DNA of 64,000 nt from Styela clava (taxonomy: Eukaryota; Chordata; Ascidiacea; Stolidobranchia; Styelidae): NCBI RefSeq assembly GCF_964204865.1, contig NC_135252.1, forward strand, positions 11,553,383 to 11,617,382. Direction: 5' to 3'. The notes beneath the pieces are model-generated. The model was not told the origin of the DNA. It was given only the letters and a program-made list of their open reading frames with translations, and searched no databases. Positions 15,160-52,900 of the stretch are shown here, one piece after another. Each line of letters starts with the position of its first letter. Within the stretch, counting starts at the first letter, position 1. A program made the translations under genes and the position numbers.

Positions 15160-15500
15160 TAGTGGACATAGCGATCGTTTTGTTGGTATGTTGTTCTTTG
15201 ACACTTTTTGGACACCTAGTGGAAATATTAAAAAACCTCTTTTCTCTTTGATCACTGGACCAATTGCTTTGAAATTTTTAGTGGTTGAAGATGAAATTTT
15301 TCTTCAGAAGGCTATTACTTTTATTTATTTCAAATATTTCTGTTAGCTCTATGAGATTTGTTTTTGTTCGCTATGACGTCACTGAACGTTCTGAGGACGC
15401 ATATGCAGGCACTCCTCTTTTTGATGACGTGCCTTCAAACGTTGGCGTGACGGCGGATTCTGAAAGTCGCAAGTTTTTCGAGGTTACCCGTGAATGGTGG
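15160..15500 (+). repeat. Diverged copy of a GGACACGT-ended dispersed repeat
   Basis: It contains the blocks 'cgtttagtggacata', 'ctggaccaattgctttgaaa' and 'aaggctattacttttattta' in the same order as the fuller copy at 52090-52505. It is more divergent and lacks the last third. The 72-codon frame over it (15285-15503) is therefore probably repeat sequence, not a gene. Confidence 0.6.
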
Positions 15501-15504
15501 TGAT

Positions 15505-15690
15505 GCTAAAGGTACGGTAGACCGTACTGTACTGCTTTGCTTGGTGTGAATATATTTGTAGACTGTGGTCTAGACTAGAGGTACGGTATACCGTGCTTCA
15601 CTGCTTCGCTTAGTGTAAATATATTTGTAGACTGTGGTCGAAATGCTTCGCTTGGTGTGAATATATTTGTAGACTGCGGTATCTGCTGTT
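15505..15690 (+). repeat. Short tandem repeat, about 65-70 bp, two and a half units
   Basis: The block 'tgtgaatatatttgtagact' or a near copy recurs three times at roughly 15545, 15615 and 15657. The first two units are preceded by near-palindromic ggtacggtagaccgtac-type sequence. The third unit is truncated on its left side. Confidence 0.65.
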
Positions 15691-15770
15691 ATAATACGGT
15701 GATAAATCGAATAAGTTGGTTTTGCAGAAAAGAAGCGTCTGGCATTACAGGTAGGAAGGGGAATTGGAAT

Positions 15771-16400
15771 ATTTCCAATACGTCGATAATATCTTTGTCA
15801 ACCAATTTGCGACCACCGTGTTTTTGTCTGTTTGATTGCTGTGATGTGGTGCTTTGTTTATAATTTGACAAGTTTTGTTCGAAATAACCGTGTTCTTAAA
15901 ATATATGACGGTCAGAAATGCAATTAGAAGCCCAGATAGAGAAGTTCTGGTACCGTAACACTGAACTAACTCGTAGCTGTCAGAAGCTTGAAAATCCATA
16001 CAAATATAAGAGATAAAAAGATGAAACTTGGCAGGTGGGTAGAGTTGTTTTTCTTTTAACCACATTTGAAGGTTTCGCGTTTCTACATTCAAAAGAGGGG
16101 GAATAGGGGGGGGGGGGTGCGCAATTGCGCATTTCCAATACGTCGATAATATCTTTGTCAACCAATTTGCGACCATCGTGTTTTTGTCTGTTTGATTGCT
16201 GTGATGCGGTGCTTTGTTAATAATTTGACGGGTATTGTTCGAAATAACCGTGTTCTTAAAATATATGACGGTCAGAAATGCAATCAGAGGCCCAGATAGA
16301 GAAATTCTGGTACCGTAACACAGCGCGATGACACTGAACTAACTCGTAGCTGTCAAAAGCTTGAAAATCCATACAAATATAAGAGATAACAAGAGAGCTA
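15771..16400 (+). repeat. 360-bp tandem duplication with a partial third copy
   Basis: The sequence starting 'atttccaatacgtcgataat' at 15771 starts again at 16131. The block 'ggtcagaaatgcaat' with its flanks recurs at about 15910 and 16270, so the period is 360 bp. A piece of the unit ('gtttttgtctgtttgattgc') appears a third time near 16720. A separate block ('ggcaggtgggtagagttgt') is at 16030 and 16638. The unit includes a run of about 12 guanines near 16107. Confidence 0.75.
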
Positions 16401-16640
16401 TGCTCAAATATATGGACACGTAGAGTCACATAATTTTGATGACGTCATAGCGAAAAAAAAAGTAATAGCCTTCTGGAGAAAATTATTATCTTTAACCACT
16501 GAAAGTTTCAAAGCAATTGGTCCAGTATTCGAAGAGAAAAGCGACTTTTTAAAAACGTGTCAAAGAACAAGAACAACAACAACATAATATTGAAACGATC
16601 GTTATGTCCACTATGTGTCCAAAAAGACGAAATTTGGCAG
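16390..16640 (-). repeat. Second dispersed-repeat copy, inverted
   Basis: Read on the minus strand, it carries the 52.1-kb repeat blocks (ccaattgctttgaaactttc, aatattatgttgttgttgtt) between a ggacat end and a caagagagct end. The central part of the full repeat is missing. Confidence 0.65.
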
Positions 16641-17378
16641 GTGGGTAGAGTTGTGTTTCTTTTAACCACCTTTGAAGGTTTCGCGTTTCTACATGTAAAG
16701 AAGGGGGAATTTGCGACCACCGTGTTTTTGTCTGTTTGATTGCTGTGATGTGGTGCTTTGTTTATACAGGTACGTCACCGCATAAGATTTTTGGGGAACT
16801 GTTCTACGTGTTCATATATTTGAGCATTGCTCTCTTGTTTTTATGTCTAATTGCTACTTTGCAGTCAATGAATGTCTGAACGACAGTCTCTTTCTCCTCG
16901 TTCTTCTGGAATTTCGTTTGATACTAATCAAAGATAAACTTGGCAGACGCTAATTTGACATCGAAGGCCTCAAATAAGTTTTTATCTGTTTCCACTTCGA
17001 GAAAGATCGTTCGCAATTAGCAATTGTGCCAAGTAGCCAATTGTGAGTAATAAACAATATGCAATGCTCTAAGTAGGAAAAACATCCCAGCCAAACTCAA
17101 CTAACGAAGCAATAAAATCTTTGCATTTATTGGAAAATCAGAGTTGCCTATGTTGAATTAAAATAATTGTTTGAAACATATAAACCTTTTTGAGGCGCTT
17201 ACTTGCGAAACCATCGTTAAAATGAGCAGCAAAAATGTTGCAATTGTAGAATATAGGAAGAATTTTTCTGGGGACAAGGGTCGGGGAAAATTCTTTTTTG
17301 ACTCGCCATCACCACAGTCAGTCACACACGACCTAATACACAATGTCAGCTTCTAATTAAATAAAAACACATTGAGAA

Positions 17379-17787
17379 CAAGAGAGCTACGCACAAATAT
17401 ATGGACACGTTAGACCGAGCGAATCAGTCCTTACCGGTACCTTTGACGCTACCGGTACCCTCAAAAAAGTTCTAAATTTCCAGTAGCAAGAATTGTGCAG
17501 AATCAAAACGTACAGCCAGTCATGACACTGACTAAAATCTGTGTTCCCATGGATAAAAAATAATACAGCAAAATTTTAGACGAAATATCAAATTTCATAG
17601 AATTCACGCAAAATTTTGAAATAAATAAAAGTAATAGCCTTCTGGAGAAAAATTTTATCTTCAACCACTGAAAATTTCAAAGCAATTGGTCCAGTATTCG
17701 AAGAGAAAAGCGACTTTTTAAAAACGTGTCAAAGAACAACAACAACAACATAATATTGAAACGATTGTTATGTCCATTTCGTGTCCA
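17379..17787 (-). mobile_element. Non-autonomous element with GGACACGT ends, copy A
   Basis: Over about 410 bp this is the reverse complement of 52090-52505. Shared landmarks include the paired accggtacc motifs, 'ccagtcatgacactgac', 'tccatggg' and 'ccaattgctttgaaat'. Near the ends are short inverted repeats: ggacacgttta on one side and taacgtgtcc on the other. There is no coding capacity. A MITE-type DNA transposon derivative is the simplest reading; the family is unknown to me. Confidence 0.7.
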
Positions 17788-17799
17788 AAAACGTGTGTA

Positions 17800-22127: not shown

Positions 22128-22238
22128 GGTGCAATACTGTACACATATAAAATGTCATAAATGTAAAGTTAATATTTATTTTTAAAGTTTTGTTTATGTT
22201 TAATAGACAAACTCCCACTTAGTGTTTCTTTTGTCAGT

Positions 22239-23054
22239 ATGATTATCAAAGAATTTCGCATCGTCTTACCAATCAGTGTGGAAGAATATCAGTTCGCTTA
22301 TCGTTGGTCTGTCACTGAAGCCGATAAGAATGAAACTGGAGGTGGAGAAGGTGTAGAATGGGTTATAAATGAACCAAGAGAAAATGATGAGCATGGAAAG
22401 CATCAGTACACTCACAAAATATATCATTTGCTATCAAAAGCACCGTCTATTATAAGAAAGCTGGCACCAAGTGGATCTCTCCAAGTACATGGAAGATCAT
22501 TCAACGGGTATCCATATTGCGAAACCATAATTACTAACGAGTATATGAAAGATAGTTTCCTTGTTTCAATTGAATCAAAACATGTCTCAGATTTTGGAAA
22601 AATAGAAAACATTTTTGGTCTCTCTAAAGATGAACTGGATAAAAGGCAAGTGATAAACGTTGACATTGTGAATAACCCAATCGATCCAAGAGATCACACA
22701 GCAGAAACTGATCCGAAAAAGTTCACATTTTCAAGAGATGGAGTTGCAAGGGGACCTTTGGCTGAAGATTGGATGGAGAAACTAAAAGAAAATGATTCGA
22801 CCAAACCCCATATGTGTGTATATAAACTTGTCAAATGTGAATTTAAGTGGTTTGGTTTGCAGGAGACCATGGAAAAAAGGATAATGAAATTTTACGCTCG
22901 ACTATTTCTCAATTTGCATCGCCAAGTTTATTGCTCAATGAAGGAATGGTATGGTGTTGATATGGATGACGTGTTGACAAAAGAAGAGAAAACCAAGGTC
23001 GAATTAAATGAAATGAGAAATATCGGAACTGTACAAGGGATGACAGAAAAATGA
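22239..23054 (+). CDS. Class I phosphatidylinositol transfer protein, copy 1 (intronless)
   Basis: This 271-residue single-exon frame matches animal PITP alpha/beta (about 270 residues) end to end. It transfers phosphatidylinositol and phosphatidylcholine between membranes. Visible family landmarks are [10 protein letters not shown] (about 31-40), YTHKIYHL with the lipid-headgroup Thr/Lys pair at 58 and 60, YPYCETIITNEYM with the conserved Cys, FKWFGLQ (the membrane-docking Trp-Trp site, here Trp-Phe), FHRQ-like LHRQVYC, and a C-terminal EMRN...GMTEK tail. PITP genes normally contain many introns, so an intact intronless frame suggests an old retrocopy. No poly(A) tract or target duplication survives. 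It is the most diverged of the three copies and lies just downstream of a hAT element. Confidence 0.9.
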   Translation: MIIKEFRIVLPISVEEYQFAYRWSVTEADKNETGGGEGVEWVINEPRENDEHGKHQYTHKIYHLLSKAPSIIRKLAPSGSLQVHGRSFNGYPYCETIITNEYMKDSFLVSIESKHVSDFGKIENIFGLSKDELDKRQVINVDIVNNPIDPRDHTAETDPKKFTFSRDGVARGPLAEDWMEKLKENDSTKPHMCVYKLVKCEFKWFGLQETMEKRIMKFYARLFLNLHRQVYCSMKEWYGVDMDDVLTKEEKTKVELNEMRNIGTVQGMTEK

Positions 23055-24933
23055 AGTGCGCCGAAGTATTGTATATTGCATCAAAATATAATCTCATTCA
23101 ATTTCAACCTCCAAACCCATAGCAATTTAGCACACCATTTCCAGTAATCGTGTTCAGCTGGGTAAAAAAACTCTCCAGTTTTAAAATAAGAATGTTACGC
23201 TAAGCATTTTGGATTGCAAATTCTTGTTGAATAACACTGTTTTTCCGCACTATCAAACTGCATATTCACCGCATTATTATAAATAATGTTTTAGGGCTTG
23301 TGACTGATGTAGTTTTTCGCATGATGTATTATACATATATATACAGTATATCTAACAAGGCTTGCAATATATTTTATTAACTTGTAATTTGCTCTCGCCA
23401 CGGTGACTAGTATTTCAGGGTGTGTGGTGCTGAGGGTCGCAATAAGGGTATGGGTCTTGTTCAGACACAAGAATGTCTGAACCATAAACCATAAATAAAA
23501 CAGAAGAAATCGGCTAAACGTTCTCTTTATTATAAGCAACAAGCTCACGTAAACAGTGTTTTTCTTTTGGCCAGTTTATGATTTTGAAACCCCGTTTGTT
23601 GTGTCGTAACGGGAGTAATTCTTTCCTTGAATGAAAATTTAAATTTGTAGGATTGTTTTAACGACTAGTCTACTAAGTTGAAATCAATGGTATAAATGGC
23701 ATCAACAAATCGTAATTTTTCTCCCAATAGGAGCGCAATGATTTTCAACACCACGAAATAAAAAGATAATTGAATAAGATTTTTCGGTCTTGTAGCAATC
23801 TTATTAAACTCGTAAGACTAACCATGTAAATTTATCCAATAATAACTCAGAGAATCCCGTTTCCATTCATCGATCGTTGAAACATGAGCATCTAATTTGT
23901 TTCTTTCAGAAATACGAACTTTTAGCAATCACTTACTTTTTGTATTAACATTGATGTTATTTCGCAAAACAGCTTACTTTGTACGAAATTATGAGTGTAA
24001 AGTATAAACCATAAACATTGCATATTAGCTCGTAGTGCAATTGTGTGTTATCGTGCTTTGGTATTTCAGAAGATTTCAACATAACCGTTGAAATGAATCA
24101 AGTCTGTTGCAGTATGCTTTGTCCTTTAAAATTTTAAAACATTTAATAAAGTAAATTTTGACTTCCGTAGTATACATTGCATTTTAGATTGTTTGTTTTC
24201 ATGGAAAACGTTTGTACGTGTTCACACCCTACTATTCTTAGAACCAAAATCGTTTCCGTGCACTTTTTCAATGCTATTGTCAATATTTCAATAAAAAATG
24301 CAAAAAGTGATTTAGAGTGTATTTTTTTATTGAAATACCAGGCATCGCTGTGGAACTACAAAAACAATGGTGCTATTTAAAAGCTGTACATACTGTCGGA
24401 ATAATGATTTACAATTACAATTAGAAATTCTTGTTGAATAACACGTTTCTGTCCTATCAAATCTCGTTTGTGTTGTCATAACAGGGGTAATTGCTTTCCT
24501 TGATGTTTTAACGACTATAAGGCTACTTAGTTGAAATCATTGTGATCATGTCAGCGGCACGAAGTAGGGCATATGTGCCCATAATATAGTTTTAGCTACC
24601 ATTTTGGTGAATAGGAAATTGGATTTATAAGCATATAGGCCCATTTTCACATAGAACAATAATGTAAAGAGTTTGAATGCAATTTTTTTAACCATAGTGG
24701 AAGACAAATGACACGTTTCAGACTTGAGAGGTATTATTATGTGTTTTCCCTCGCTATTTTTGCAGCTTATTTCTGGTCATTGTACTGGCTTGCTCTTTTA
24801 CATTACTCTGCGGCTAAAGCTTACCTTACACTACAGCATTGTTTAAGCTTATATATACAACACTTAAACTTTCGAGAAAATATTATGTATAATTTATAAA
24901 TGAAATAATAACAGAGAATAACTGGCTATAGAG

Positions 24934-25129
24934 TTACTCCTCCGGTGCCGCAGTAGGTCCCGGTTCGTCTTTAATGAAATTTTCATAAAGAATTTTGCCA
25001 TCCCCATTCGTGTCCATGTAGGCAATCATTTCGTCAACTTCGTCTTCTGTTAATGCCTCTCCAATGGTAGTCAATGTATTTCGAAGTTCAGTAGCATCAA
25101 TAAATCCGTTTTTATCCTTATCCAGAATT
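24934..25129 (-). pseudogene. Orphan duplicate of the EF-hand terminal exon
   Basis: This matches the terminal exon at 30634-30829. It has an intact acceptor (tattccag-like 'tctatttcag') and encodes the [12 protein letters not shown] and [12 protein letters not shown] loops and the stop codon. No copy of exons 1-2 precedes it inside the array. It can only be used if the upstream EF-hand transcript skips the nearer copy and reads on another 5.7 kb. It is either a dead duplicate or an alternative last exon encoding the same protein end. Confidence 0.75.
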
Positions 25130-27026
25130 CTGAAATAGAATCAAGATAAACACGTATTTAAATAATCAAATAAATTGTTACGGGTGAAAGACCAGTCGGG
25201 CGCCTGACACAATCTCATTTCAGGCATTTGACGCTGGATCATATTTTTTGTTATCAGGCCAGATGCTATTCACTAAAAACCCTCCTCAGCGGCTTTCGTT
25301 CAGTGATCTCGCAAAAATTAAGAAAAATTAAGATAAAAATGCCATGGGTAATGGTTGACAAATTGCAATTTTAGTTTCACCAAAGAGAGAATTTATCATC
25401 CAGCCCATCCATTAGCTCGCAGTAATGAGTCGAAAAATATCGAAGATAATCGCAATTATGTCGGAGGAATATGAACACAGGATGTGAATCTTCTGTTAAA
25501 AATTCACGAGCGGTTTCGATTCATGACCCTATAGTGACACCGCGTGTCCCATCACTATTTAATTAATAACTCGCTAATTATACGACATAATTATCCAAAA
25601 TCAATAGGCTTCTGGTCCGAGATATGATGAATGCACATGCCAAATTTGGTGGAGCAGAATCAGCCACGCGTTCGTGAGGTATCGCGTGCATCTAACAGAC
25701 AAACAGACAAATACCTATCAACATACTTACCGATCTAAAGATCGATAAGTAACAAGACGACTGCGAATGTTATTTTGATGTAATTTCGGGTATTTCATTC
25801 GTTTTTTACTATAGTCAAAAAATATATATACGAATATTTTGCTGCTTTGTCAAAAAAAAAATTTGTTATCCCTATTTGTATAATTCGGAATGCCCTCGGT
25901 TGTTGGAAATTCCTACATTATCCACAAGAATTTAACAGAAATAGTAAGATCACGAAGCGTCATACGTTACAAACACAACGCCACGAAAACAAGTAACAAC
26001 ATAATGTCATTATATAATAACACCATTTGACTTTTGAACTGTTAAATGTAGCCACAATAGTTTCGAATAATATTTAAGATAGATTTATCATTTGTTCATG
26101 CCATAAAGAAGCAAACTGAAAATGAAATGACCGTCAACGACACGCATGCACTTGTTTAGAATTTAAATTATCAATAATGAGAATTTACCCAAAATTTTGG
26201 GACATAATTTGTACTTTCTTCTACATGAGCAATACCAAAATATTGCTCAGAAACTTTCCACGTAACTTTCCACAAACAATATAAGTGCAATTGCATGTCC
26301 AGTATTGCGGAGGCAGTTAAAGTTATGTGCATTGTACATATGAAAATATAGTTTATATAGAAAATTGCTTTAGTTTAAATCAGGCAATAATTTTGCAAAA
26401 ACCAATAAAAATCATCTCAGTATTTTGATAAACAATATTACGTTCTATCCATTCTATGTTTTACCAAATCTAATGAATATCTTATCACAAGGTTTCAGTT
26501 TTCCACCAGCGATTTCACTTTTCAACATACATAATATGCAGCGGTATCAAATCGAAGCAATGTCAATCACAATTGTGAGGCAATAACGCAAAATAATTGA
26601 ATAGTTTGAATTGAACAACTTATGCATTTATGCAATAATTGATAAATAACAGCAATTAATATTGCAAAGAAATGAATGTGTGCAGAGATTCACACATAAT
26701 TGACGGGTAATTCAATTGCTTCATTACAGTGATATAAATAGAATAAGTTTTATAACGATATGAAAATCGTTATGGCTATAAGGGTTCAGAAGTTCTTTTC
26801 ATATAAGCTCGAACACGGAAACATTTTGCCAAGAGGTGCTGTTCAGGACATCGCACACGTATATAGTTTCTATCATCGATATTGATTAATATTGTTGCAC
26901 ACTTTGCAATCATCATAAGTTTAATAATGAAGAGGAAACTGATGTGCCATAGCTATTAATATATGACACGTTAAAATTGATTGATCGAGTGGAACGTGAA
27001 TCACTCCTACCACATGAACAAATAAT

Positions 27027-27030
<4 letters not shown>

Positions 27031-27059
<29 letters not shown>
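27031..27059. repeat. TA dinucleotide microsatellite in unit 1
   Basis: A long TA run follows 'caaataattga'. The equivalent run in unit 2 (about 32853-32873) is shorter. Further TA runs occur at about 27670-27686 and 27718-27735, with counterparts at about 33592 and 33634. Confidence 0.8.
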
Positions 27060-27062
<3 letters not shown>

Positions 27063-27946
27063 TTTGTATTTTCTATGGCGCATTATTTAGGGCTGCTGGA
27101 TTTAAAATCTATTGTTGACTGCGATGCTCTCAGTCAGTGAGTGACACTGAAAACATGAACATCACCAAGAACAGTTTTTGCAATTCACCCTAAATCCAGC
27201 GCACAAGACTGTCAATTTGAATAAATTTTGAAGTGGAGTATTTAAAAAATCTGCAGAGGCAGAATGGTTGATAAAGTTCTTGGTTTGCATGAAATCACAG
27301 CAATTGTTAGAGAAATTTTGATTCAGGTTATGACTGCACAGACAGCATTTTGCTTTTCGGTTAGCTAACGTTCAAGTGTGTTTGTTGATGGCCACATTCT
27401 GATTGGGTAGAACCTGTATTATTTATTTGAATTTATAACCTAAAAGACTACTAACGTCCTCTTGAAGCCTTGTCAAATATTGGTCAACTTAAATTTGATG
27501 CGAGCTCTAGGTTGGTGGTAAAAATGCCTGAAATCATTATTGAGTTTCAGTCTTTTGTTTCAATTACACAAATGCCACACCAGGTATATATTTTTGGTTT
27601 GAATTTTGATTAAAGTAGCAACAAAATTGTTGTTAGTAGCGAAACCTACTACAGTCATGGATGTTTCAAGATATATATATATATATACAAGGTGTCCAGA
27701 TATCGTTTTGACCTTAAATATATATATATATATATTGTACAGTTCATTAATCAATTTTATAAGTTGTAAACATATTTATGAATACCATGTTCATCAGTTT
27801 CTTACTTTTGCGATGAACCGATGTCGTCATGATCTTACGCGATACGAAGTTGAACTCTGTTAAAATTTATTCCATTCTGATAAATATATATCTTTGTTTT
27901 TTATTTTCAAAGAGTTGTGTTTTACTTAGTATTTCTTTTTGTCAAT

Positions 27947-28765
27947 ATGATTATCAAAGAATTTCGCATCGTCTTACCAATCAGTGTGGAAGAATTTCAG
28001 TTCGCTCATCGTTGGTCTGTCACTGAAGCAAATAAGAAAGAAACTGGAGGCGGAGAAGGTGTAGAATGGGTGACGAATGAACCAGGTGAGAATGAGGAGC
28101 ATGGGAAGCATCAATACACTCATAAAATATACCATTTATACTCAAAAATACCGTCTATTATAAGAAAGCTGGCACCAAGTGGATCTCTCGAAGTACATGG
28201 AAAATCATTCAACGGGTATCCATCCCATTGCAAAACCACAATTACTAACGATTATATGAAAGATAGTTTCTTTGTTTTAATTGATTCAAAGCATGTGTCA
28301 GATTTTGGAGAAATAGAAAACATTTTTGATCTCTCTAATGATGAACTGGATAAAAGGCAAGTGATAAACGTTGACATTGTGAATAACCCAGTCGACTCAA
28401 GAGATTACACAGCAAATACAGATCCGAAAGAATTCACATTTTCAAGAGATGGAATTGCAAGGGGACCTTTGGCGGAAGATTGGATGGAGAAACTGAAACA
28501 AAAGGATTCAGCCCAACCGCACATGTGTGTATATAAACTTGTCAAATGTAATTTTATGTGGAGGGGGTTGCAAGAGGTCATGGAAAATATGATAATGAAA
28601 TTTTACGGCCGACTATTTCTCAATTTCCATCGCCAAGTTTATTGCTCAATGAAGGAATGGTATGGTGTTGGTATGAATGACGTGTTGAAGAAAGAAGAGC
28701 AAACTATGATTGAACTAAATGAAATGAGAAATATCGGAACTGTACAAGGGATGACAGAAAAATGA
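27947..28765 (+). CDS. Class I phosphatidylinositol transfer protein, copy 2 (intronless, chimeric)
   Basis: It encodes 272 residues in one exon. The start chosen is the methionine of [11 protein letters not shown], which aligns with family starts. An upstream in-frame ATG would add ten hydrophobic residues. Up to about residue 255 it differs from copy 3 at only four positions. Its last 16 residues and 3' flank are those of copy 1 instead (NEMRNIGTVQGMTEK). It keeps YTHKIYHL and the conserved Cys, but that loop reads [14 protein letters not shown] with one extra residue, and the docking site is MWRGLQ (Trp-Arg, not Trp-Trp). The frame is intact, so it may be functional. Confidence 0.88.
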   Translation: MIIKEFRIVLPISVEEFQFAHRWSVTEANKKETGGGEGVEWVTNEPGENEEHGKHQYTHKIYHLYSKIPSIIRKLAPSGSLEVHGKSFNGYPSHCKTTITNDYMKDSFFVLIDSKHVSDFGEIENIFDLSNDELDKRQVINVDIVNNPVDSRDYTANTDPKEFTFSRDGIARGPLAEDWMEKLKQKDSAQPHMCVYKLVKCNFMWRGLQEVMENMIMKFYGRLFLNFHRQVYCSMKEWYGVGMNDVLKKEEQTMIELNEMRNIGTVQGMTEK

Positions 28766-31700
28766 AGTGCGCCGAAGTATTGTATATTGCATCAAAATAT
28801 AATCTCATTCAATTTCAACCTCCAAACCCATAGCAATTTAGCACACAATTTCCAGTAATCGTGTTCAGCTGGGCAAAAAAACTCTCCAGTTTTAAAATAA
28901 GAATGTTACGCTAAGCATTTTGGATTGCAAATTCTTGTTGAATAACACTGTTTTTCCGCACTATCAAACTGCATATTCACCGCATTATTATAAATAATGT
29001 TTTAGGGCTTGTGACTGATGTAGTTTTTCGCATGATGTAATATACATATATATACAGTATATCTAACAAGGCTCGCAATATATTTTATTAACTTGTAATT
29101 TGCTCTTGCCACGGTGACTAGTATTTCAGGGTGTGTGGTGCTGAGGGTCGCAATAAGGGTATGGGTCTTGTTCAGACACAAGAATGTCTGAACCATAAAA
29201 CAGAAGAAATCGGCTAAACGTTCTCTTTATTATAAGCAACAAGCTCACGTAAACAGTGTTTTTCTTTTGGCCAGTTTATGATTTTGAAACCCCGTTTGTT
29301 GTGTCGTAACGGGAGTAATTCTTTCCTTGAATGAAAATTTAAATTTGTAGGATTGTTTTAACGACTAGTCTACTAAGTTGAAATCAATGGTATAAATGGC
29401 ATCAACAAATCGTAATTTTTCTCCCAATAGGAGCGCAATGATTTTCAACACCACGAAATAAAAAGATAATTGAATAAGATTTTTCGGTCTTGTAGCAATC
29501 TTATTAAACTCGTAAGACTAACCATGTAAATTTATCCAATAATAACTCAGAGAATCCCGTTTCCATTCATCGATCGTTGAAACATGAGCATCTAATTTGT
29601 TTCTTTCAGAAATACGAACTTTTAGCAATCACTTACTCTTTGTATTAACATCGATGTTATTTCGCAAAACAGCTTACTTTGTACGAAATTATGAGTGTAA
29701 AGTATAAACCATAAACATTGCATATTAGCTCGTAGTGCAATTGTGTGTTATCGTGCTTTGGTATTTCAGAAGATTTCAACATAACGACTGAAATGAATCA
29801 GGTCTGTTGCAGTATGCTTTGTCTTTTAAAATTTTAAAACACTTTATAAAGTAAATTTTGACTTCCGTAGTATACATTGCATTTTAGATTGTTTGTTTTC
29901 ATGGAAAACGTTTGTACGTGTTCACACCCTACTATTCTTAGAACCAAAATCGTTTCCGTGCACTTTTTCAACGCTATTGTCAATATTTCAATAAAAAATG
30001 CAAAAAGTGATTTAGAGTGTATTTTTTTATTGAAATATCAGGCATCGCTGTGGAACTACAAAAACAATGGTGCTATTTAAAAGCTGTACATACTGTCGGA
30101 ATAATGATTTACAATTACAATTAGAAATCCCTGTTGAATAACACGTTTCTGTCCTATCAAATCTCGTTTGTGTTGTCATAACAGGGGTAATTGCTTTCCT
30201 TGATGTTTTAACGACTATAAGGCTACTTAGTTGAAATCATTGTGATCATGTCAGCGGCACGAAGTAGGGCATATGTGCCCATAATATAGTTTTAGCTACC
30301 ATTTTGGTGAATAGGAAATTGGATTTATAAGCATATAGGCCCATTTTCACATAGAACAATAATGTAAAGAGTTTGAATGCAATTTTTTTAACCATAGTGG
30401 AAGACAAATGACACGTTTCAGACTTGAGAGGTATTATTATGTGTTTTCCCTCGCTATTTTTGCAGCTTATTTCTGGTCATTGTACTGGCTTGCTCTTTTA
30501 CATTACTCTGCGGCTAAAGCTTACCTTACACTACAGCATTGTTTAAGCTTATATATACAACACTTAAACTTTCGAGAAAATATTATGTATAATTTATAAA
30601 TGAAATAATAACAGAGAATAACTGGCTATAGAGTTACTCCTCCGGTGCCGCAGTAGGTCCCGGTTCGTCTTTAATGAAATTTTCATAAAGAATTTTGCCA
30701 TCCCCATTCGTGTCCATGTAGGCAATCATTTCGTCAACTTCGTCTTCTGTTAATGCCTCTCCAATGGTAGTCAATGTATTTCGAAGTTCAGTAGCATCAA
30801 TAAATCCGTTTTTATCCTTATCCAGAATTCTGAAATAGAATCAAGATAAACACGTATTTAATAATCAAATAAATTGTTACGGGTGAAAGGCGCCTGACAC
30901 AATCTCATTTCAGGCATTTGACGCTGGATCATATTTATTGTTATCAGGCCAGATGCTATTCACTAAAAACCCTCCTCAGCGGCTTTCGTTCAGTGATCTC
31001 GCAAAAATTAAGAAAAATTAAGATAAAAATGCCATGGGTAATGGTTGACAAATTGCAATTTTAGTTTCACCAAAGAGAGAATTTATCATCCAGCCCATCC
31101 ATTAGCTCGCAGTAATGAGTCGAAAAATATCGAAGATATTCGCAATTATGTCGGATGAATATGAACACAGGATGTGAATCTTCTGTTAAAAATTCACGAG
31201 CCGGCGAGCGGCGACTATTTAGGGCAACATTATAATTCGGTATGAATCGTATCATTTCTTGTCAAAATAATAACGAGAACATCGGTCGGAGACCGAAGAC
31301 TTAACGATCGAAACTGCGGTTTCGATTCATGACCCTATAGTGACACCGCGTGTCCCATCACTATTTAATTAATAACTCGCTAATTATACGACATAATTAT
31401 CCAAAATCAATAGGCTTCTGGTCCGAGATATGATGAATGCACATGCAAAATTTGGTGGAGCAGAATCAGCCACGCGTTCGAGAGGTATCGCGTGCATCTA
31501 ACAGACAAACAGACAAATACCTATCAACATACTTACCGATCTAAAGATCGATAAGTAACAAGACGACTGCGAATGTTATTTTGATGTAATTTCAGGTTTT
31601 TCATTCTGGTTTTTTACTATAGTCAAAAAATATATATATATATACGAATATTTTGCTGCTTTGTCAAAAAAAAAAATTTGTTATCCCTATTTGTATAATT

Positions 31701-34626
31701 CGGAATGCCCTCGGTTGTTGGAAATTCCTACATTATCCACAAGAATTTAACAGAAATAGTAAGATCACGAAGCGTCATACGTTACAAACACAACGCCACG
31801 AAAACAAGTAACAACATAATGTCATTATATAATAACACCATTTGACTTTTGAACTGTTAAATGTAGCCACAATAGTTTCGAATAATATTCAAGATAGATT
31901 TATAATTTGTTCATGCCATAAAGAAGCAAACTGAAAATGAAATGACCGTCAACGACACGAATGCACTTGTTTAGAATTTAAATTATCAATAATGAGAATT
32001 TACCCAAAATTTTGGGACATAATTTGTACTTTCTTCTACATGAGCAATACCAAAATATTGCTCAGAAACTTTCCACGTAACTTTCCACAAACAATATAAG
32101 TGCAATTGCATGTCCAGTATTGCGGAGGCAATTAAAGTTATGTGCATCGTACATATGAAAATATAGTTTATATAGAAAATTGCTTTAGTTTAAATCAGGC
32201 AATAATTTTGCAAAAACCAATAAAAATCATCTCAGTATTTTGATAAACAATATTACGTTCCATCCATTCTATGTTTTACCAAATCTAATGAATATCTTAT
32301 CACAAGGTTTCAGTTTTCCACCAGCGATTTCACTTTTCAACATACATAATATGAAGAAACATGCAGCGGTATCAAATCGAAGCAATGTCAATCACAATTG
32401 TGAGGCAATAACGCAAAATAATTGAATAGTTTGAATTGAACAACGCATTTATGCAATAATTGATAAATAACAGCAATTAATATTGCAAAGAAATGAATGT
32501 GTGCAGAGATTCACACATAATTGACGGGTAATTCAATTGCTTCATTACAGTGATATAAATAGAATAAGTTTTATAACGATATGAAAATCGTTATGGCTAT
32601 AAGGGTTCAGAAGTTCTTTTCATATAAGCTCGAACACGGAAACATTTTGCCAAGAGGTGCTGTTCAGGACATCGCACACGTATATAGTTTCTATCATCGA
32701 TATTGATTAATATTGTTGCACACTTTGCAATCATCATAAGTTTAATAATGAAGAGAAAACTGATGTACCATAGCTATTAATATATGACACGTTAAAAATG
32801 ATTGATCGAGTGGAACGTGAATCACTCCTACCACATGATGGACAAATAATTGATATATATATATATATATATATACATTTTGTATTTTCTATGGCGCATT
32901 ATTTAGAGCTGCTGGATTTAAAATCTATTGTTGACTGCGATGCTCTCAGTCAGTGAGTGACACTGAAAACATGAACATCACCAAGAACAGTTTTTGCAAT
33001 CCACCCTAAATCCAGCGCACAAGACTGTCAATTTGAATAAATTTTGAAGTGGAGTATTTCAAAAATCTGCAGAGGCAGAATGGTTGATAAAGTTCTTGGT
33101 TTGCATAAAATCACAGCAATTGTTAGAGAAATTTTGATTCAGGTTATGACTGCACAGACAGCATTATGCTTTTCGGTTAGCTAACGTTCAAGTGTGTTTG
33201 TTGATGGCGACATTCTGATTGGGTAGAACCTGTATTATTTATTTGAATTTATAACCTAAAAGACTACTAACGTTAGCGGTTAGCTAACGTTCAAGTGTGT
33301 TTGTTGATGGCGACATTCTGATTGGGTAGAACCTGTATTATTTATTTGAATTTATAACCTAAAAGACTACTAACGTCCTCTTGAAGCCTTGTCAAATATT
33401 GGTCAACTTAAATTTGATGCGAGCTCTAGGTTGGTGGTAAAAATGCCTGAAATCATTATTGAGTTTCAGTCTTTTGTTTCAATTACACAAATGCCACACC
33501 AGGTATATATTTTTGGTTTGAATTTTGATTAAAGTAGCAACAAAATTGTTGTTAGTAGCGAAACCTACTACAGTCATGGATGTTTCAAGATATATATATA
33601 TACAAGGTGTCCAGATATCGTTTTGACCTTAAATATATATATATATATATATTGTACAGTTCATTAATCAATTTTACAAGTTGTAAACATATTTATGAAT
33701 ACCATGTACATCAGTTTCTTACTTTTGCGATGAACCGATGTCGTCATGATCTTACGCGATACGAAGTTGAACTCTGTTAAAATTTATTCTATTCCGATAA
33801 ATATATATCTTTGTTGTTTATTCAAAGAGTTGTGTTTTACTTAGTATTTCTTTTTGTCAATATGATTATCAAAGAATTTCGCATCGTCTTACCAATCAGT
33901 GTGGAAGAATTTCAGTTCGCTCAACGTTGGTCTGTCACTGAAGCAAATAAGAAAGAAACTGGAGGCGGAGAAGGTGTAGAATGGGTGACGAATGAACCAG
34001 GCGAGAATGAGGAGCATGGGAAGCATCAATACACTCATAAAATATACCATTTATACTCAAAAATACCGTCTATTATAAGAAAGCTGGCACCAAGTGGATC
34101 TCTCGAAGTACATGGAAAATCATTCAACGGGTATCCATCCCATTGCAAAACCACAATTACTAACGATTATATGAAAGATAGTTTCTTTGTTTTAATTGAT
34201 TCAAAGCATGTGTCAGATTTTGGAGAAATAGAAAACATTTTTGATCTCTCTAATGATGAACTGGATAAAAGGCAAGTGATAAACGTTGACATTGTGAATA
34301 ACCCAGTCGACTCAAGAGATTACACAGCAAATACAGATCCGAAAGAATTCACACTTTCAAGAGATGGAATTGCAAGGGGACCTTTGGCGGAAGATTGGAT
34401 GGAGAAACTGAAACAAAAGGATTCAGCCCAACCGCACATGTGTGTATATAAACTTGTCAAATGTAATTTTATGTGGAGGGGGTTGCAAAAGGTCATGGAA
34501 AATATGATAATGAAATTTTACGGCCGACTATTTCTCAATTTCCATCGCCAAGTTTATTGCTCAATGAAGGAATGGCATGGTGTTGGTATGAATGACGTGT
34601 TGAAGAAAGAAGAGCAAACTATGATT
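28712..34626 (+). repeat. Tandem segmental duplication, unit 2 (about 5.9 kb)
   Basis: This is homologous along its length to 23001-28711. Differences include about 115 bp near 31201-31315 absent from unit 1, a local 103-bp tandem duplication at 33174-33376, shorter TA runs and small indels. It holds the EF-hand terminal exon that pairs with the exons at 35.3-35.8 kb and ends inside PITP copy 3. Confidence 0.9.
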
Positions 34627-35784
34627 GAATTAAAGAATATGTTAAATATTGGAACTGTACGAGGGATGTCCGAAACCTAAAATAAACTATAAAAACTCTA
34701 TGAATATATTGTATACACACGTTAAAATCATGTTGTTTATTCAACAAGTTCATTCAAGTATTGTAATTCACAGTATGCATTTATATTATATGTATTTATT
34801 CGCATATAATAAACTTCATTCAACATTATTCTGACTGTAGACACAAATAACGAGATAACGGCGATTATTTGGGCGATATATTCACAAATGAAACTCCGCG
34901 AAATCTAAAACAAATAAACCAAAAATTTTGTGGTTAAAATCGGAATGACGCTTGCTAAATATTTCCAATCCCGAACTGAAATAAAAATAAAAAACAAGAT
35001 GCGTCGAATATCGAAATGCTCAGCTCTACCGATGACGTAATATTCCAACACAAAAGCTTATAATGACTATATGCGCTGCGACTCCAAAAAATATTTCAAT
35101 TTATGGTTCATCACGTGCCGTGTTTCTCTGTGCCCGAATATCCATCGCGACACGCGAACATAATCTTGTAGGCAATGCGATATTTCTACTGCGATGCCAT
35201 CCTCATTGAATGGTGTATCGGAATCAGCCAATTGTTTCGGATTTACCCATTGTTGTCGCTTACGGCGTAGACAATATTGTTTGAAGCCTACTCTCAAGCC
35301 AAAATATTCCCACAACATTAACGAACACAGTAAGTAAGTCATTACCTGAATGCCTTTGCTATTTCGTCTTCAAGTTCATGTGGCGGTTTTACGAGTTTGG
35401 CGTATAAATCTAACATTGTCTCATAGCTGATGTCACCCATATACTGTGGATCAATTTCCTGAAAATAACATATATATATATATATATATATACAAGTAAT
35501 GCGCATATAGAAAAGTACATGATGGGTATTTTGTGCCCATTCATATGACTAGGAGAACAATCGTAATATATCGAGAGCAGCAAAAGAGAATGCAAAATAA
35601 TAAATATATATTAACCAAATACCAGTTTGTATTCTTCTATTTCTTCGAGTGTCGGAGTAAGACCCATTTTTCTTAAAACGTCTCCAGCTTGTTCGACCTG
35701 AATAGGGCCTCCTTCTTCTTTAACAAAACTATTGAACGCCTCCTTGAATAACGACTTATCTTCGTCAGATAACCTTTCAACCAT
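30634..35784 (-). CDS. EF-hand protein, calmodulin/myosin light chain-like, 156 aa
   Basis: Exons are 35784-35623, 35458-35346 and 30829-30634 (162+113+196 nt, in frame, GT-AG). The start [10 protein letters not shown] is the first ATG of exon 1. The fold is that of the calmodulin, troponin C and myosin light chain superfamily. The first two EF-hands are degenerate ([22 protein letters not shown]). Loop 3 ([12 protein letters not shown], residues 95-106) is a full calcium-binding loop. Loop 4 ([12 protein letters not shown], 131-142) ends in Asn rather than Glu, which should weaken calcium binding. The C-terminus ends in an unusual Pro/Glu tail ([11 protein letters not shown]). Intron 2 spans about 4.5 kb and contains PITP copy 3 on the opposite strand. 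I cannot decide between light chain and calmodulin-like protein. Confidence 0.82.
33174..33376. repeat. Local 103-bp tandem duplication
   Basis: The block beginning 'cggttagctaacgttcaagt' at 33174 starts again at 33277. Unit 1 has only one copy (near 27358), so this arose after the large duplication. It lies upstream of PITP copy 3. Confidence 0.85.
33862..34680 (+). CDS. Class I phosphatidylinositol transfer protein, copy 3 (intronless)
   Basis: It encodes 272 residues in a single exon, and the start aligns with copies 1 and 2. It is nearly identical to copy 2 until the final helix, where it reads [16 protein letters not shown]. This makes it the donor of the 5' part of copy 2. It has the same YPSHCKTT insertion and MWRGLQ docking-site change as copy 2. 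It lies inside an intron of the minus-strand EF-hand gene. AATAAA overlaps the end of the frame at 34681, and a second AATAAA is at 34808. Confidence 0.9.
   Translation: MIIKEFRIVLPISVEEFQFAQRWSVTEANKKETGGGEGVEWVTNEPGENEEHGKHQYTHKIYHLYSKIPSIIRKLAPSGSLEVHGKSFNGYPSHCKTTITNDYMKDSFFVLIDSKHVSDFGEIENIFDLSNDELDKRQVINVDIVNNPVDSRDYTANTDPKEFTLSRDGIARGPLAEDWMEKLKQKDSAQPHMCVYKLVKCNFMWRGLQKVMENMIMKFYGRLFLNFHRQVYCSMKEWHGVGMNDVLKKEEQTMIELKNMLNIGTVRGMSET
34808..34813 (+). terminator. Polyadenylation signal after PITP copy 3
   Basis: AATAAA lies about 130 bp past the stop codon. A second AATAAA starts at 34681 immediately after the stop and is probably too close to be the main site. Confidence 0.4.
35471..35492. 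repeat. TA microsatellite in the EF-hand first intron
   Basis: This is an uninterrupted run of TA dinucleotides just outside the acceptor of exon 2. Confidence 0.75.
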
Positions 35785-37249: not shown

Positions 37250-47258
<10,009 letters not shown>

Positions 47259-47327: not shown

Positions 47328-48508
47328 TTTTTTTTTTTTTTTTTTTTTTTTAATGGGATAATATAATAAATTATAACAAAAAGTATATAACCATTCGAGC
47401 AATCATAAGATAAATAATCCAATATTCATTTTTCATATGTCCATTCCATCAGTGTTTGAGGTGTTGATCGCATCGGCATACAATTCATCAATTTTTAGTA
47501 TATTGAGTTAGATTATGTACAATAAACGTAAAAAATTAAATATATATTAGACATGTTCATTTTAATATATACTAAATTTATACACACTAGATTTATAGTT
47601 CAAATACAATTCCTTAGTATTTCAAATTCTCTGACAAAATTTAGTGATTTTCTATTTTTTTCAATGTTGAGTCTGTAAGTGATTGCAGTTTTTATTTGTT
47701 TGATAACTAGGTGCTGATTAGGGGGATTACCTTCGAATATAACAGAATTTCTTTGTATCCATATTTTATATCTAGTGATTGAAATTAAATAAACAATAAT
47801 ATCTAAATCTCGTCTTGTAATGTTGGAATGTAACAAATAGCTTAAATCCAATGAAACACAAGTTTCATAATTTTTCAAAAGCCTGGCATTATTTAATTTC
47901 CTTACAGTATTTTCCATAAAATCAAAAACATAATCGAAATATTCACAATTCATAAATAGATGGCTAACAAATTCTGGTTCTTTTCCACATAACACACACA
48001 TATCATTTCCTGCTATATTTCTTATTCCAGGTTTTGTTTTTACTGGTAAAATATCCCACATTAACTTGAAATTAAAGGTTTTCATATAGTTTGCCAGAAT
48101 ATTATTATGAATATTCTCACATGCAATATTTAAATTACAATTGCGTAGAAAAATTAATCTGTCCCCATTCATAGAAATAACAATTTTTTTATAAATAGTT
48201 TTATGCATATCTTCTTTTATATCTGTACTACTTATGTTATGCTTTCTTAAAAATTCTAATATTAATCTATACTCACTTTGAGGACAAAATCTATGTAAAC
48301 ATGTATTTTTAGTTCTAATCCCCCAAAATGTACTAAGTTGTTGTCCAATATTGTATTCAACAAAGGACATACAAATATGATTGTAATCCTCATTATAATC
48401 ACATTCTCTAGCTTTATAATAATCCAAGACACTAATTATGTACATGCACATTGTAAAAATGGGTATGTTAATAATATCATAACCCCCCAAATTTTTTGGT
48501 TTGCACAA
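47328..48508 (-). mobile_element. 5'-truncated LINE with poly(A) tail
   Basis: An intact 302-codon frame (48508-47600) is followed by about 250 bp of 3'UTR and 24 adenines (plus-strand T run 47328-47351). The protein has the zinc-knuckle of the zf-RVT type seen at the C-terminus of many non-LTR reverse transcriptases (CVLCGKEPEFVSHLFMNC, CX2CX7HX4C). Its N-terminal part (KPKNLGGYDIINI) resembles the usual GG(L/Y)G motif between the polymerase and zinc-finger regions. The reverse transcriptase and endonuclease regions are missing. It is in the same orientation as the synthetase and lies just upstream of it. I could not define the target duplication. Confidence 0.82.
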
Positions 48509-48599
48509 ATTATTTGTTATGGGTTAATCAAGATCGGGCCGACGTTACTCCGACAATACGACGCGGACGCGAACGAAATGAATGATGAAATAACTAGTA

Positions 48600-49979: not shown

Positions 49980-52900
49980 ATGCTCGCCAATATAGCTCCT
50001 GAAATATTGGAAGCATATGCAAATCTTGACATTAATACGTTATTACAAAATCCTGCTTCATCCATCAGACCTTTGCTACCTTCTCTCAGTCGCATGCTGT
50101 TGTGTTCTTCATTGGACAAAACATGGAGGTAAAATATGAAGATGTGAATATATTTTTTCAAATTTGTTTATTCGAGAAATTTATAAAAATGCTCGAATAT
50201 TCATTCCCATCTTACTCTCTATTTGGTTTTTAGTATAAATATCGATTATTGAGAAATTGCTGTTCAAATGCAATAATAATTTGAATTGTCTTTCGGCATT
50301 CGCATGTATTGTTATATACAAGTAAAAACGCAAATAGCTTATCTAAATTGAAATCGTTGTTAGGCATATATCGTATGTATCTTTGCTTATAGTTCATAAA
50401 ACATTCTAATTGTGATATTATCTAACACTGAGTTCGTTAAAAATTCATTTCAATATTTTTTATTTTAGATGGGAAGAAAATCAGAAAGATCTAATGCAGT
50501 TATTATCAGGAATAGAAGATGTCAATGACATTGTCGCTCTGTTATCTGTTGATTTTCATGCTTTAGAAATTGATGCTAAAACAGAACAAAAAACAAGGTG
50601 TTTATTCTTCTATTTTTTATGCATATGTTTACATTTCAACCATCACAATCACCAAACATTGAGATTAACCTCATTACTTTGTTTCAAGAATTTTAAACTC
50701 AACTTTGTGTTACTGTTAGTAAGATTGCCATTTGTAAAATTTCTACTAGTCTCATAACTGGGTCTGGGCATTTTCGAATACTGTATCTGATGATTTCAAA
50801 ATCAAATTTCGATTACTTCGAAAATATGAAATCTATCACTCAGACAGTTCGATGAGTGTTCACGCACAAGAAACATGCCTCATCAATAACTTACTCAGGT
50901 GAAAAGAGTCATATGTCACAATTGTGTTTTAAAAATATGGCACAATAAATAAAAAAATGAATGATTCATCTTATTCTTTGGGTGGACACAAACAAGATGC
51001 CGACGATTCACAATTCTCGCCTGAACCGATTCAAATAATTTACTATTCCATTTGAATACTCAATTTAAAATGCCTAGTTCTACGCATAACCAATCATTAT
51101 CGTTCTTCATGTATAAAAATATAGTGGGAGTGGAATATTTTCATGCTAGTTTTCTCAAAGTCAATTTGCAATCGAGTTGGAAATAGAAATATTTGCATAA
51201 CTATCATTAAATACAACTGTAATATTTTGCACAAGTAACTTTGACTAATACAAGAAAAGTTTCTTTAAGCTTTTGGCATGCACGATTAAATTATGGTATA
51301 AGAATAATTCGAAGCTTTTTATATATGCTTAACTTTGAATACTACCTTTCGAAAATTTTGACATCAGTGTGATTCAGTGTGTAATTTATGATACAGGCCT
51401 ATCTAAGATTTTCAAGAAAGGCATAACTTCTGTTAATTTGTTTTATAGGCAAAAAATTACAACTGGAGGCAGAAGTGTAATTACATCCAATCTCCAAAAA
51501 CATGGTCTCATCTTAGAATTTGAAAGAAGTGAACCTGCTCGAAAATTGCGTTTACTGATTTCAGATATCATGCCATTGCTGGTTGCATTTTCAAATTCAG
51601 GTTACAAGATTATAATAAAACTATCAGAATGATTTGAATTTTTGCTGCTATGCCTGATGCACTACGTCTAACCTTTTCCTTAATTAATAGAAAACTTCAT
51701 TGCCTAATATGAAATTTGTATCATAGTTATATATATTGTAGTTATTACGGTAAATACAAATTTGATAATTTTATGGTGCCATATTTCTTCTAAACAGGTG
51801 AAGGATCAAAATCCTTAGTCTTAGATGATGATGGATTTGCTACAAAATCTGAATTATTTAGTTGTATTGCTTATCTTCAAGTTGTTTCTGATGTTCTTTG
51901 TATTGCAGTCGCAGGTAAAATAAGAAACAAGCGATATTTGGGTGCTAAAGTTCTCAACTTTCTGTAAATTTGATTTTATTGTTGATGTTGTAAACTTTGT
52001 TAAACCTTGTTATAGATGTTGCAACTTGCAATGGTCATACTGATTGTGTATACCATATTCCCGTATGAATAAAGTTTAACATAGCTTTATTGGACACGTT
52101 TAGTGGACATAACGATCGTTTCAATATTATGTTGTTGTTGTTCTTGTTCTTTGACACGTTTTTAAAAGTCGCTTTTCTCTTCGAATACTGGACCAATTGC
52201 TTTGAAATTTTCAGTGGTTAAAGATTAATTTTTTCGCTAGAAGGCTATTACTTTTATTTATTTCAAAATTTTGCGTGAATTCTATGAAATTTGATATTTC
52301 GTCTAAAATTTTGCTGTATTATTTTTTATCCATGGGAACACGGATTTTAGTCAGTGTCATGACTGGCTGTACGTTTTGATTCTGCAAAATTCTTGCTACT
52401 GGAAATTCAGAACTTTTTTGAGGGTACCGGTAGCGTCAAAGGTACCGGTAAGGACTGATTCGCTCTGGTCTAACGTGTCCATATATTTGTGCGTAGCTCT
52501 CTTGTCTCTAATATGAAGTGAAATTTTTAGCAAAGTATTTATTTCTGTTTGTTAGAATTGCCAACATTATTAAATATATTGGACATGGCAGAAGCACTGA
52601 TGTATGTTCCCAATGGAGGAAAGGTTTTATGTAAATTGGTAAGATCACTTTTGATATTTCCATCAGCTATGGTTATTTGAACTCTGTCAAAATCTTTGCC
52701 TTTCAGTATCGTTTATTATATGCAGGACATTCAAGATAATTATAATGCAATTCCAGATTTCTAAACCTACTTGTCAGATAAGTAAGCTGTATGTGTATCA
52801 CATCAACTACACCTATAACTTCCTGTATTTTTGGTGCTTCCATGTGAATTTGAATGTGAACGTTAAGTGTACATGTGATTCTTGAATTATCAAGTGAGGC

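Follow-up and report, generated by a model that had tools for sequence, protein, structure and literature searches.

A hybrid gene in a tandem PITP array

A window of 64,000 nucleotides of the ascidian Styela clava (contig C3, NC_135252.1, positions 11553383–11617382) carries three open reading frames (ORFs) without introns that encode the phosphatidylinositol transfer protein (PITP) domain, in a row and all on the plus strand. We refer to the upstream copy as P1, to the middle one as copy 2 and to the downstream one as P3; with the two intergenic segments, the order is P1 - X - hybrid - X' - P3. All results pertain to a single assembly of one individual, in which the genome searched comprised 376.6 Mb in 379 contigs. 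Each of the three array proteins matches PF02121 over its full length, with scores of 287.6–300 bits against a cut-off of 21.3. Genome-wide, PF02121 matched at 14 places, 5 of which are unbroken full-length frames, i.e. the three array copies and two intronless ORFs of 279 and 280 amino acids at C3:15.10 Mb (L009). The remaining nine are partial and exon-sized, six on C1 and three on C4. Judged by eye, the PITP gene on C1 looks class-II-like.

Copy 2 is a hybrid of its two neighbours. Among the 96 variable ungapped columns of the aligned coding sequences, copy 2 shares its base with P3 in 78 and with P1 in 16; one column in which copy 2 has a private base and one in which all three copies differ were excluded, leaving 94 informative columns for the switch test. 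The best split lies between position 28711, the last P3-type site, and position 28720, the first P1-type site of the tail, with 82 sites on the left (78 P3-type and 4 P1-type) and 12 sites on the right, all of P1 type. The maximum χ2 of 67.06 was reached in 0 of 20000 permutations. Sites on both sides are dense, with seven P3-type sites packed in the 23 bases from 28689 to 28711 and twelve P1-type sites in the 45 bases from 28720 to 28764. Over the first 760 alignment columns copy 2 is 99.3% identical to P3 and 90.0% to P1, and over the 59 columns from column 760, which include three P3-type sites ahead of the switch, it is 93.2% identical to P1 and 78.0% to P3. The same allegiance continues outside the gene: in 100-base windows, the 5' flank of copy 2 has an identity of 0.91–1.00 to P3 and 0.29–0.61 to P1, and the 3' flank 0.98–1.00 to P1 and 0.36–0.51 to P3.

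To the left of the switch, the four sites of P1 type stand isolated among P3-type sites and correspond to the four amino-acid differences between copy 2 and P3 (H21Q, F165L, E210K and Y239H, from copy 2 to P3). Functional divergence as an explanation of these differences is unsupported, as the counts by the Nei–Gojobori method (NG86), 4.0 nonsynonymous and 1.0 synonymous, are too few.

A preliminary description of this DNA had presented copy 2 as matching P3 with four residue differences up to about codon 255, and P1 in its last 16 residues and whole 3' flank. The alignment of the coding sequences agrees with the first statement and the flank windows with the last, and the comparison of copy 2 with both neighbours along the sequence, proposed there as a check, revealed the sharp switch at the 3' end. 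The tail is indeed of P1 type, but its certain length is 15 residues (258–272), codons 256 and 257 being uninformative. The switch had been placed within about 28712–28720, in a motif GAA(C/T)TAAA common to the three genes; the place holds, but the interval ends at 28719, since 28720 is already P1-type, and the sequence common to P1 and P3 is GAATTAAA, with copy 2 alone carrying C at 28715.

The boundaries of two long repeated units coincide with the switch in copy 2. Units 1 and 2, described earlier as alike over their full length, are 99.12% identical, with 50 mismatches in 5671 aligned positions and 15 gaps, the largest of 116 and 103 bases; the single base at 28715 falls between the units as cut and was not counted. 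Coding and non-coding positions do not differ in divergence (5/768 versus 45/4853 mismatches, Fisher p = 0.54), in agreement with the prediction for one event. A genome search with 23100–27900 as the query yielded 48 matches. Near-full ones were confined to the query's own place and, split into three pieces, its counterpart in unit 2; with 40 of 2835 candidates scored, the listing thus included no third copy of the unit. The remainder consisted of short pieces and of a dispersed repeat of roughly 245 bases.

Each unit also contains, on the minus strand, one terminal coding exon of a predicted EF-hand (calmodulin-like) gene, a feature absent from the preliminary description. The two predicted upstream exons join in frame to either terminal exon, giving an identical 156-amino acid product through the same acceptor sequence. 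The predicted protein matches the EF-hand models of Pfam, and its best 60 of 488 PDB matches (best E 8.3e-36) comprise calmodulins, calmodulin fusions and a calmodulin-related protein. P3 lies antisense within the last coding intron of this predicted gene.

Table 1. Features of the PITP array and of the overlapping EF-hand gene (positions in the window)
Feature	Position	Strand	Basis
P1 (copy 1), upstream partner	22239..23054	+	271-aa intronless ORF; PF02121 300 bits, E 1.8e-89
8-base tract in P1 homologous to the switch interval	23001..23008	+	
Unit 1: end of P1, intergenic X (which holds an EF-hand terminal exon) and the P3-type 5' portion of copy 2	23005..28714	+	
EF-hand gene, predicted terminal coding exon, unit-1 duplicate (distal)	24934..25129	-	Same protein, same acceptor; within the 805-base clean tract
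Copy 2, hybrid	27947..28765	+	272-aa ORF; P3-type to 28711, P1-type from 28720
Switch interval in copy 2, GAA(C/T)TAAA	28712..28719	+	Lies between the diagnostic sites at 28711 and 28720
Unit 2: P1-type end of copy 2, then X' and the 5' portion of P3	28716..34629	+	
EF-hand gene, predicted terminal coding exon, unit-2 copy (proximal)	30634..30829	-	Acceptor and frame intact, 156-aa protein
116 bases in unit 2 only, last ~50 the start of a dispersed repeat	31200..31315	+	Unit 1 versus unit 2 alignment, repeat search
103-base tandem duplication in unit 2, single copy in unit 1	33174..33376	+	100% match over both copies
P3 (copy 3), downstream partner	33862..34680	+	272-aa intronless PITP-domain ORF; antisense in last coding intron of the EF-hand gene
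8-base tract in P3 homologous to the switch interval	34627..34634	+	
EF-hand gene, predicted second coding exon	35346..35458	-	Splice sites, frame
EF-hand gene, predicted first coding exon from ATG	35623..35784	-	Splice sites, frame, Pfam EF-hand

Unequal exchange and its alternatives

We consider it probable that an array of two genes became one of three by unequal exchange between diverged P1 and P3 copies. Out-of-register recombination of this pair had been suggested in the preliminary description, and it is supported by the topology of the array, the in-register join, the duplication of the unit and the comparable divergence of coding and non-coding positions. In the ancestor, diverged intronless P1 and P3 would have flanked a single X with the EF-hand terminal coding exon, with P3 nested in the final coding intron of this gene. 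Two chromosomes, either homologues or sisters, would have paired out of register with P3 opposite P1, and an exchange in the 8-base identical tract, just ahead of the final 46 bases of the reading frame, would have kept P1 and P3 and added the hybrid and a second X. The hybrid would combine the P3-type 5' flank and codons 1–255 with the P1-type codons 258–272 and 3' flank. The exchange that made the hybrid most likely also doubled the terminal exon of the EF-hand gene, which is thereby predicted to have gained a spare terminal exon identical to the first. In the reciprocal deletion product this exon would be lost, and selection against that product would be expected.

Over the 8 bases that contain the join, which lies at matching codons, P1 and P3 are identical. 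The 6-kb neighbourhoods of P1 and P3 share 1200 maximal matches of 8 bases or more, of which 34 are in register in the coding sequences; that the join is in register even though so few of the matches are favours guidance by homology. We infer an ancestral two-gene state, and a reciprocal crossover in preference to a homology-guided template switch.

Several observations weigh against such an exchange. The coding sequences of P1 and P3 have 77 exact tracts in common, the longest of 51 bases (with P3-private sites counted as identical), and tracts of 8 bases or less would be expected to receive 27% of exchanges if the chance is proportional to tract length, or 7% if it is proportional to the length squared. 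Beside the join, P1 and P3 are identical at 50 of 60 bases on the left and 34 of 46 on the right, and the tract of 8 bases takes the place of the long (>100 bp) identical tract found in classical long-homology non-allelic homologous recombination. In cultured cells, efficient exchange is reported to fall off sharply from 232 to 134 bp, and for human meiosis 300–500 bp are quoted; shorter stretches are reported in the same source, <114 bp at NF1 (somatic) and <50 bp at alpha-globin (PMC2583991). Furthermore, the mismatches between the units are clumped, with a variance/mean ratio of 2.07 in 18 full 300-base bins that was reached in 56 of 10000 random draws, and the longest mismatch-free tract of 805 bases (24432–25246), which covers the EF-hand exon and its 3' side, was reached in 217 of 10000. 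Finally, at all four left-hand amino-acid differences between copy 2 and P3, the P3 base is that of both canonical copies, the residue matching at one of the four (Gln21), which would be odd if P3 had simply mutated. The clumping hints at later conversion between the units or constraint on the EF-hand exon. The unequal exchange itself may have included a conversion tract that shifted the visible switch to the edge of the homology.

The main rival to unequal exchange is replication template switching or microhomology-mediated repair via the 8-base GAATTAAA, without a meiotic crossover. A junction of 8 bases within a poorly matched stretch speaks for this mechanism, as does a longest exact tract of 51 bases between P1 and P3; the in-register position of the junction, however, would be expected for only 34 of the 1200 such matches, and template-switch junctions elsewhere are reported to measure 2–5 nt and to need no register (PMC2583991), which makes this explanation unlikely. 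Another explanation is that a tandem duplication came first and gene conversion later overwrote part of copy 2, creating the switch. Mismatch clumping and the clean 805-base tract suggest exchange between the units, and the unusual distribution of bases over the four sites left of the switch points in the same direction, but these sites are isolated and form no tract, the match to P3 runs upstream and that to P1 downstream through whole units, and a duplication ending at the switch would be required anyway. We find this order of events barely credible, and conversion as the sole cause is ruled out, as it adds no 5.7 kb unit and the matches extend through the entire flanking units. The canonical base of P3 at all four sites was also weighed as evidence for conversion between P1 and copy 2; we did not retain this reading, since the sites stand alone and only at one of them (Gln21) does the residue agree as well.

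The 0.9% divergence between the units could also be allelic, as it would be if two haplotypes had been joined end to end during assembly. Such an artefact is very unlikely, given that an assembler would require a shared overlap longer than the 8 bases at the join, that dense P3-type and then P1-type sites surround it and leave neither a k-mer nor a read overlap to connect P3 with P1, that a haplotype misjoin would hardly end at a homologous codon, and that the 40 of 2835 candidates scored listed no third unit copy; on the 8-base join a simple misjoin was judged unlikely.

The unequal exchange looks much younger than the split of P1 and P3, with a synonymous divergence (dS) of about 0.2 for the pair versus 0.9% between the units. 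The latter value does not date the event, because an exchange between homologues would join alleles that already differed, and conversion could erase later differences.

Origin of the P1/P3 pair and later changes

NG86 estimates for P1 and P3 are 0.108 for nonsynonymous divergence (dN) and 0.209 for dS. The proportion of synonymous differences (pS 0.174) compared with that of nonsynonymous differences (pN 0.102; Fisher p 0.015, from rounded counts with gapped codons skipped) suggests weak constraint on the pair. Between array and canonical copies, dS is at least 1.77 or not computable. Beside the coding sequences, the similarity of P1 and P3 extends no further than ~70 bases on the upstream side and is not significant on the downstream side: the alignment score of the 200 upstream bases was reached in 14 of 500 shuffles, that of bases -300 to -27 in 69 of 500, and that of the 300 downstream bases in 436 of 500. 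Comparison of the 3-kb flanks by blastn gave a 66-base match of 77% (E 1.6e-8), which lies ~2.7 kb upstream of P1 and ~1.8 kb upstream of P3. Three further, weaker matches link the flanks of P1 and P3 (E 0.004–0.05), and these matches, the 66-base one included, are not collinear next to the genes. Flank similarity this weak and non-collinear suggests that the pair arose by RNA-mediated copying, or that conversion was confined to the coding sequence. As for the marks of a retrogene, no poly(A) or target-site duplication was identified in the flanks, which were read by eye, with no search aimed at these marks. An intron-bearing class I PITP parent may reside elsewhere in the genome, e.g. among the exon-split genes on C1 and C4.

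The 66-base stretch upstream of P1 (19441–19506) is 77% identical to 26193–26256 and 32008–32071, one place per unit, and is probably a small dispersed repeat. Immediately 5' of the P1 start codon (22226–22238) there is a splice-acceptor-like TTTCTTTTGTCAG, where CAA replaces CAG in copy 2 (27933–27946) and P3 (33848–33861); a 5' untranslated region (UTR) intron or a trans-splice site is possible for P1 alone.

The 116 bases found in unit 2 only end in the first ~50 bases of a dispersed repeat of ~300 bases, which is located at 25510–25755 in unit 1 and 31263–31561 in unit 2 and whose listed copies outside the array are 89–94% identical. A search with 31150–31620 (3218 candidate places at first look, 40 scored) returned 43 matches, 3 of them in the array, and the 40 others all begin at query positions 106–127. 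All of these starts precede query position 167, the point at which the unit-1 sequence picks up again, which makes a deletion of the 116 bases from unit 1, at 25510, the most likely history. The 103-base tandem duplication is probably young, as its copies are exact.

Elsewhere in the window, an ORF on the minus strand at 47600–48523 with a zf-RVT match (Pfam E 4.3e-7) is a remnant of a reverse-transcriptase-type element, and a frame at 50416–50757 that matches Integrator complex subunit 2 (Pfam E 1.1e-12) is probably an exon of the Integrator subunit 2 gene. Clustered direct and inverted repeats of 60–191 bases, mostly 84–97% alike with one copy at 63%, occupy 15228–17791 and 40159–40833.

Lipid-binding residues and comparison with known systems

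The array proteins, with 271–272 amino acids, comprise the full IP_trans domain without extension and are 46–49% identical to PITP-alpha (1t27). In class I PITPs, the residues reported to contact the inositol ring are Thr59, Lys61, Glu86 and Asn90, and losing any of them is described as abolishing the binding of phosphatidylinositol (PI) but not of phosphatidylcholine (PC) (PMC8266687). Thr59, Lys61 and Asn90 are kept in all three array copies, and Glu86 is replaced by Gly in all three; both L009 copies keep Glu86. Because of this replacement, weak PI binding is predicted for all three array proteins. The same source names Cys95 and Phe225 for PC and Gln22, Thr97, Thr114 and Lys195 for the phosphodiester (PMC8266687). 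Cys95 is kept in all three copies, with one inserted residue before it in copy 2 and P3, and Phe225 is Leu in P1 and Phe in the other two. At Gln22, array codon 21, P1, copy 2 and P3 have Tyr, His and Gln, the CAA codon of P3 being that of both canonical copies. Thr97 and Lys195 are kept in all three, and Thr114 is Ser in all three and in both L009 copies. The changes at Gln22 and Phe225 would make PC binding uncertain as well. Trp204 belongs to the docking pair, and the WW203/204AA exchange is reported to block docking of mammalian PITPs (PMC2635478); Trp204 is Phe in P1 and both L009 copies and Arg in copy 2 and P3.

By alignment, the swapped residues 258–272 correspond to PITP-alpha from about residue 256 on, and the PITP lid is described as the G-helix plus the 11 C-terminal residues (PMC2635478). 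The hybrid is predicted to keep the lipid cavity and control region of P3 and to take the C-terminal end of the lid and the 3' UTR from P1.

The array preserves in one place the parents, the product and the breakpoint of an exchange between 10%-diverged genes, and with 8 bases at the join it constitutes a natural test of the minimal identity for exchange. It also indicates that a nested gene can act as a handle that duplicates the terminal exon of its host. With 99% identity between the units along 5.7 kb, copy number is predicted to change recurrently, which can be checked in any population sample; fresh exchanges between the units should make it vary. We put forward, tentatively and with more doubt than conviction, that an intronic P3 and its diverged neighbour served as a short, imperfect recombination handle through which one exchange gave a hybrid carrier with a swapped lid end and two alternative terminal exons of the host calcium-sensor gene, that the branch lacking Glu86 now carries or senses another lipid, and that the PITP gene and the EF-hand terminal exon are both polymorphic in copy number today.

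The titles and abstract beginnings of the literature surveyed contained no PITP array of this kind, which is no proof of absence. Like class I PITPs (PITP-alpha/beta, PF02121), the array proteins have a full IP_trans domain, and unlike them they have Gly at Glu86 and Phe (P1) or Arg (copy 2 and P3) at Trp204. An intronless P3 inside the intron of a host gene resembles nested retrogenes as they are described, with the difference that retroposition is what we infer here. The kind of event is already well known, and the array around copy 2 adds to it a short imperfect handle, a doubled terminal exon and the loss of Glu86. In haemoglobin (Hb) anti-Lepore, three genes stand in order with the hybrid in the middle. 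The hybrid is of the beta-delta type and is reported to result from an unequal crossover with a duplication of about 7.4 kb (PMC10954745), as the counterpart of Lepore (PMC5434260). The PITP array likewise has a hybrid of neighbouring paralogues and a duplicated segment, here of 5.7–5.9 kb, and the hybrid again joins the 5' part of the downstream gene to the 3' part of the upstream gene by an exchange at homologous positions. Unlike Hb anti-Lepore, a rare human variant, the array is known from one assembly and consists of intronless genes, and P3 is nested in an intron of the EF-hand gene, whose terminal exon is duplicated too.

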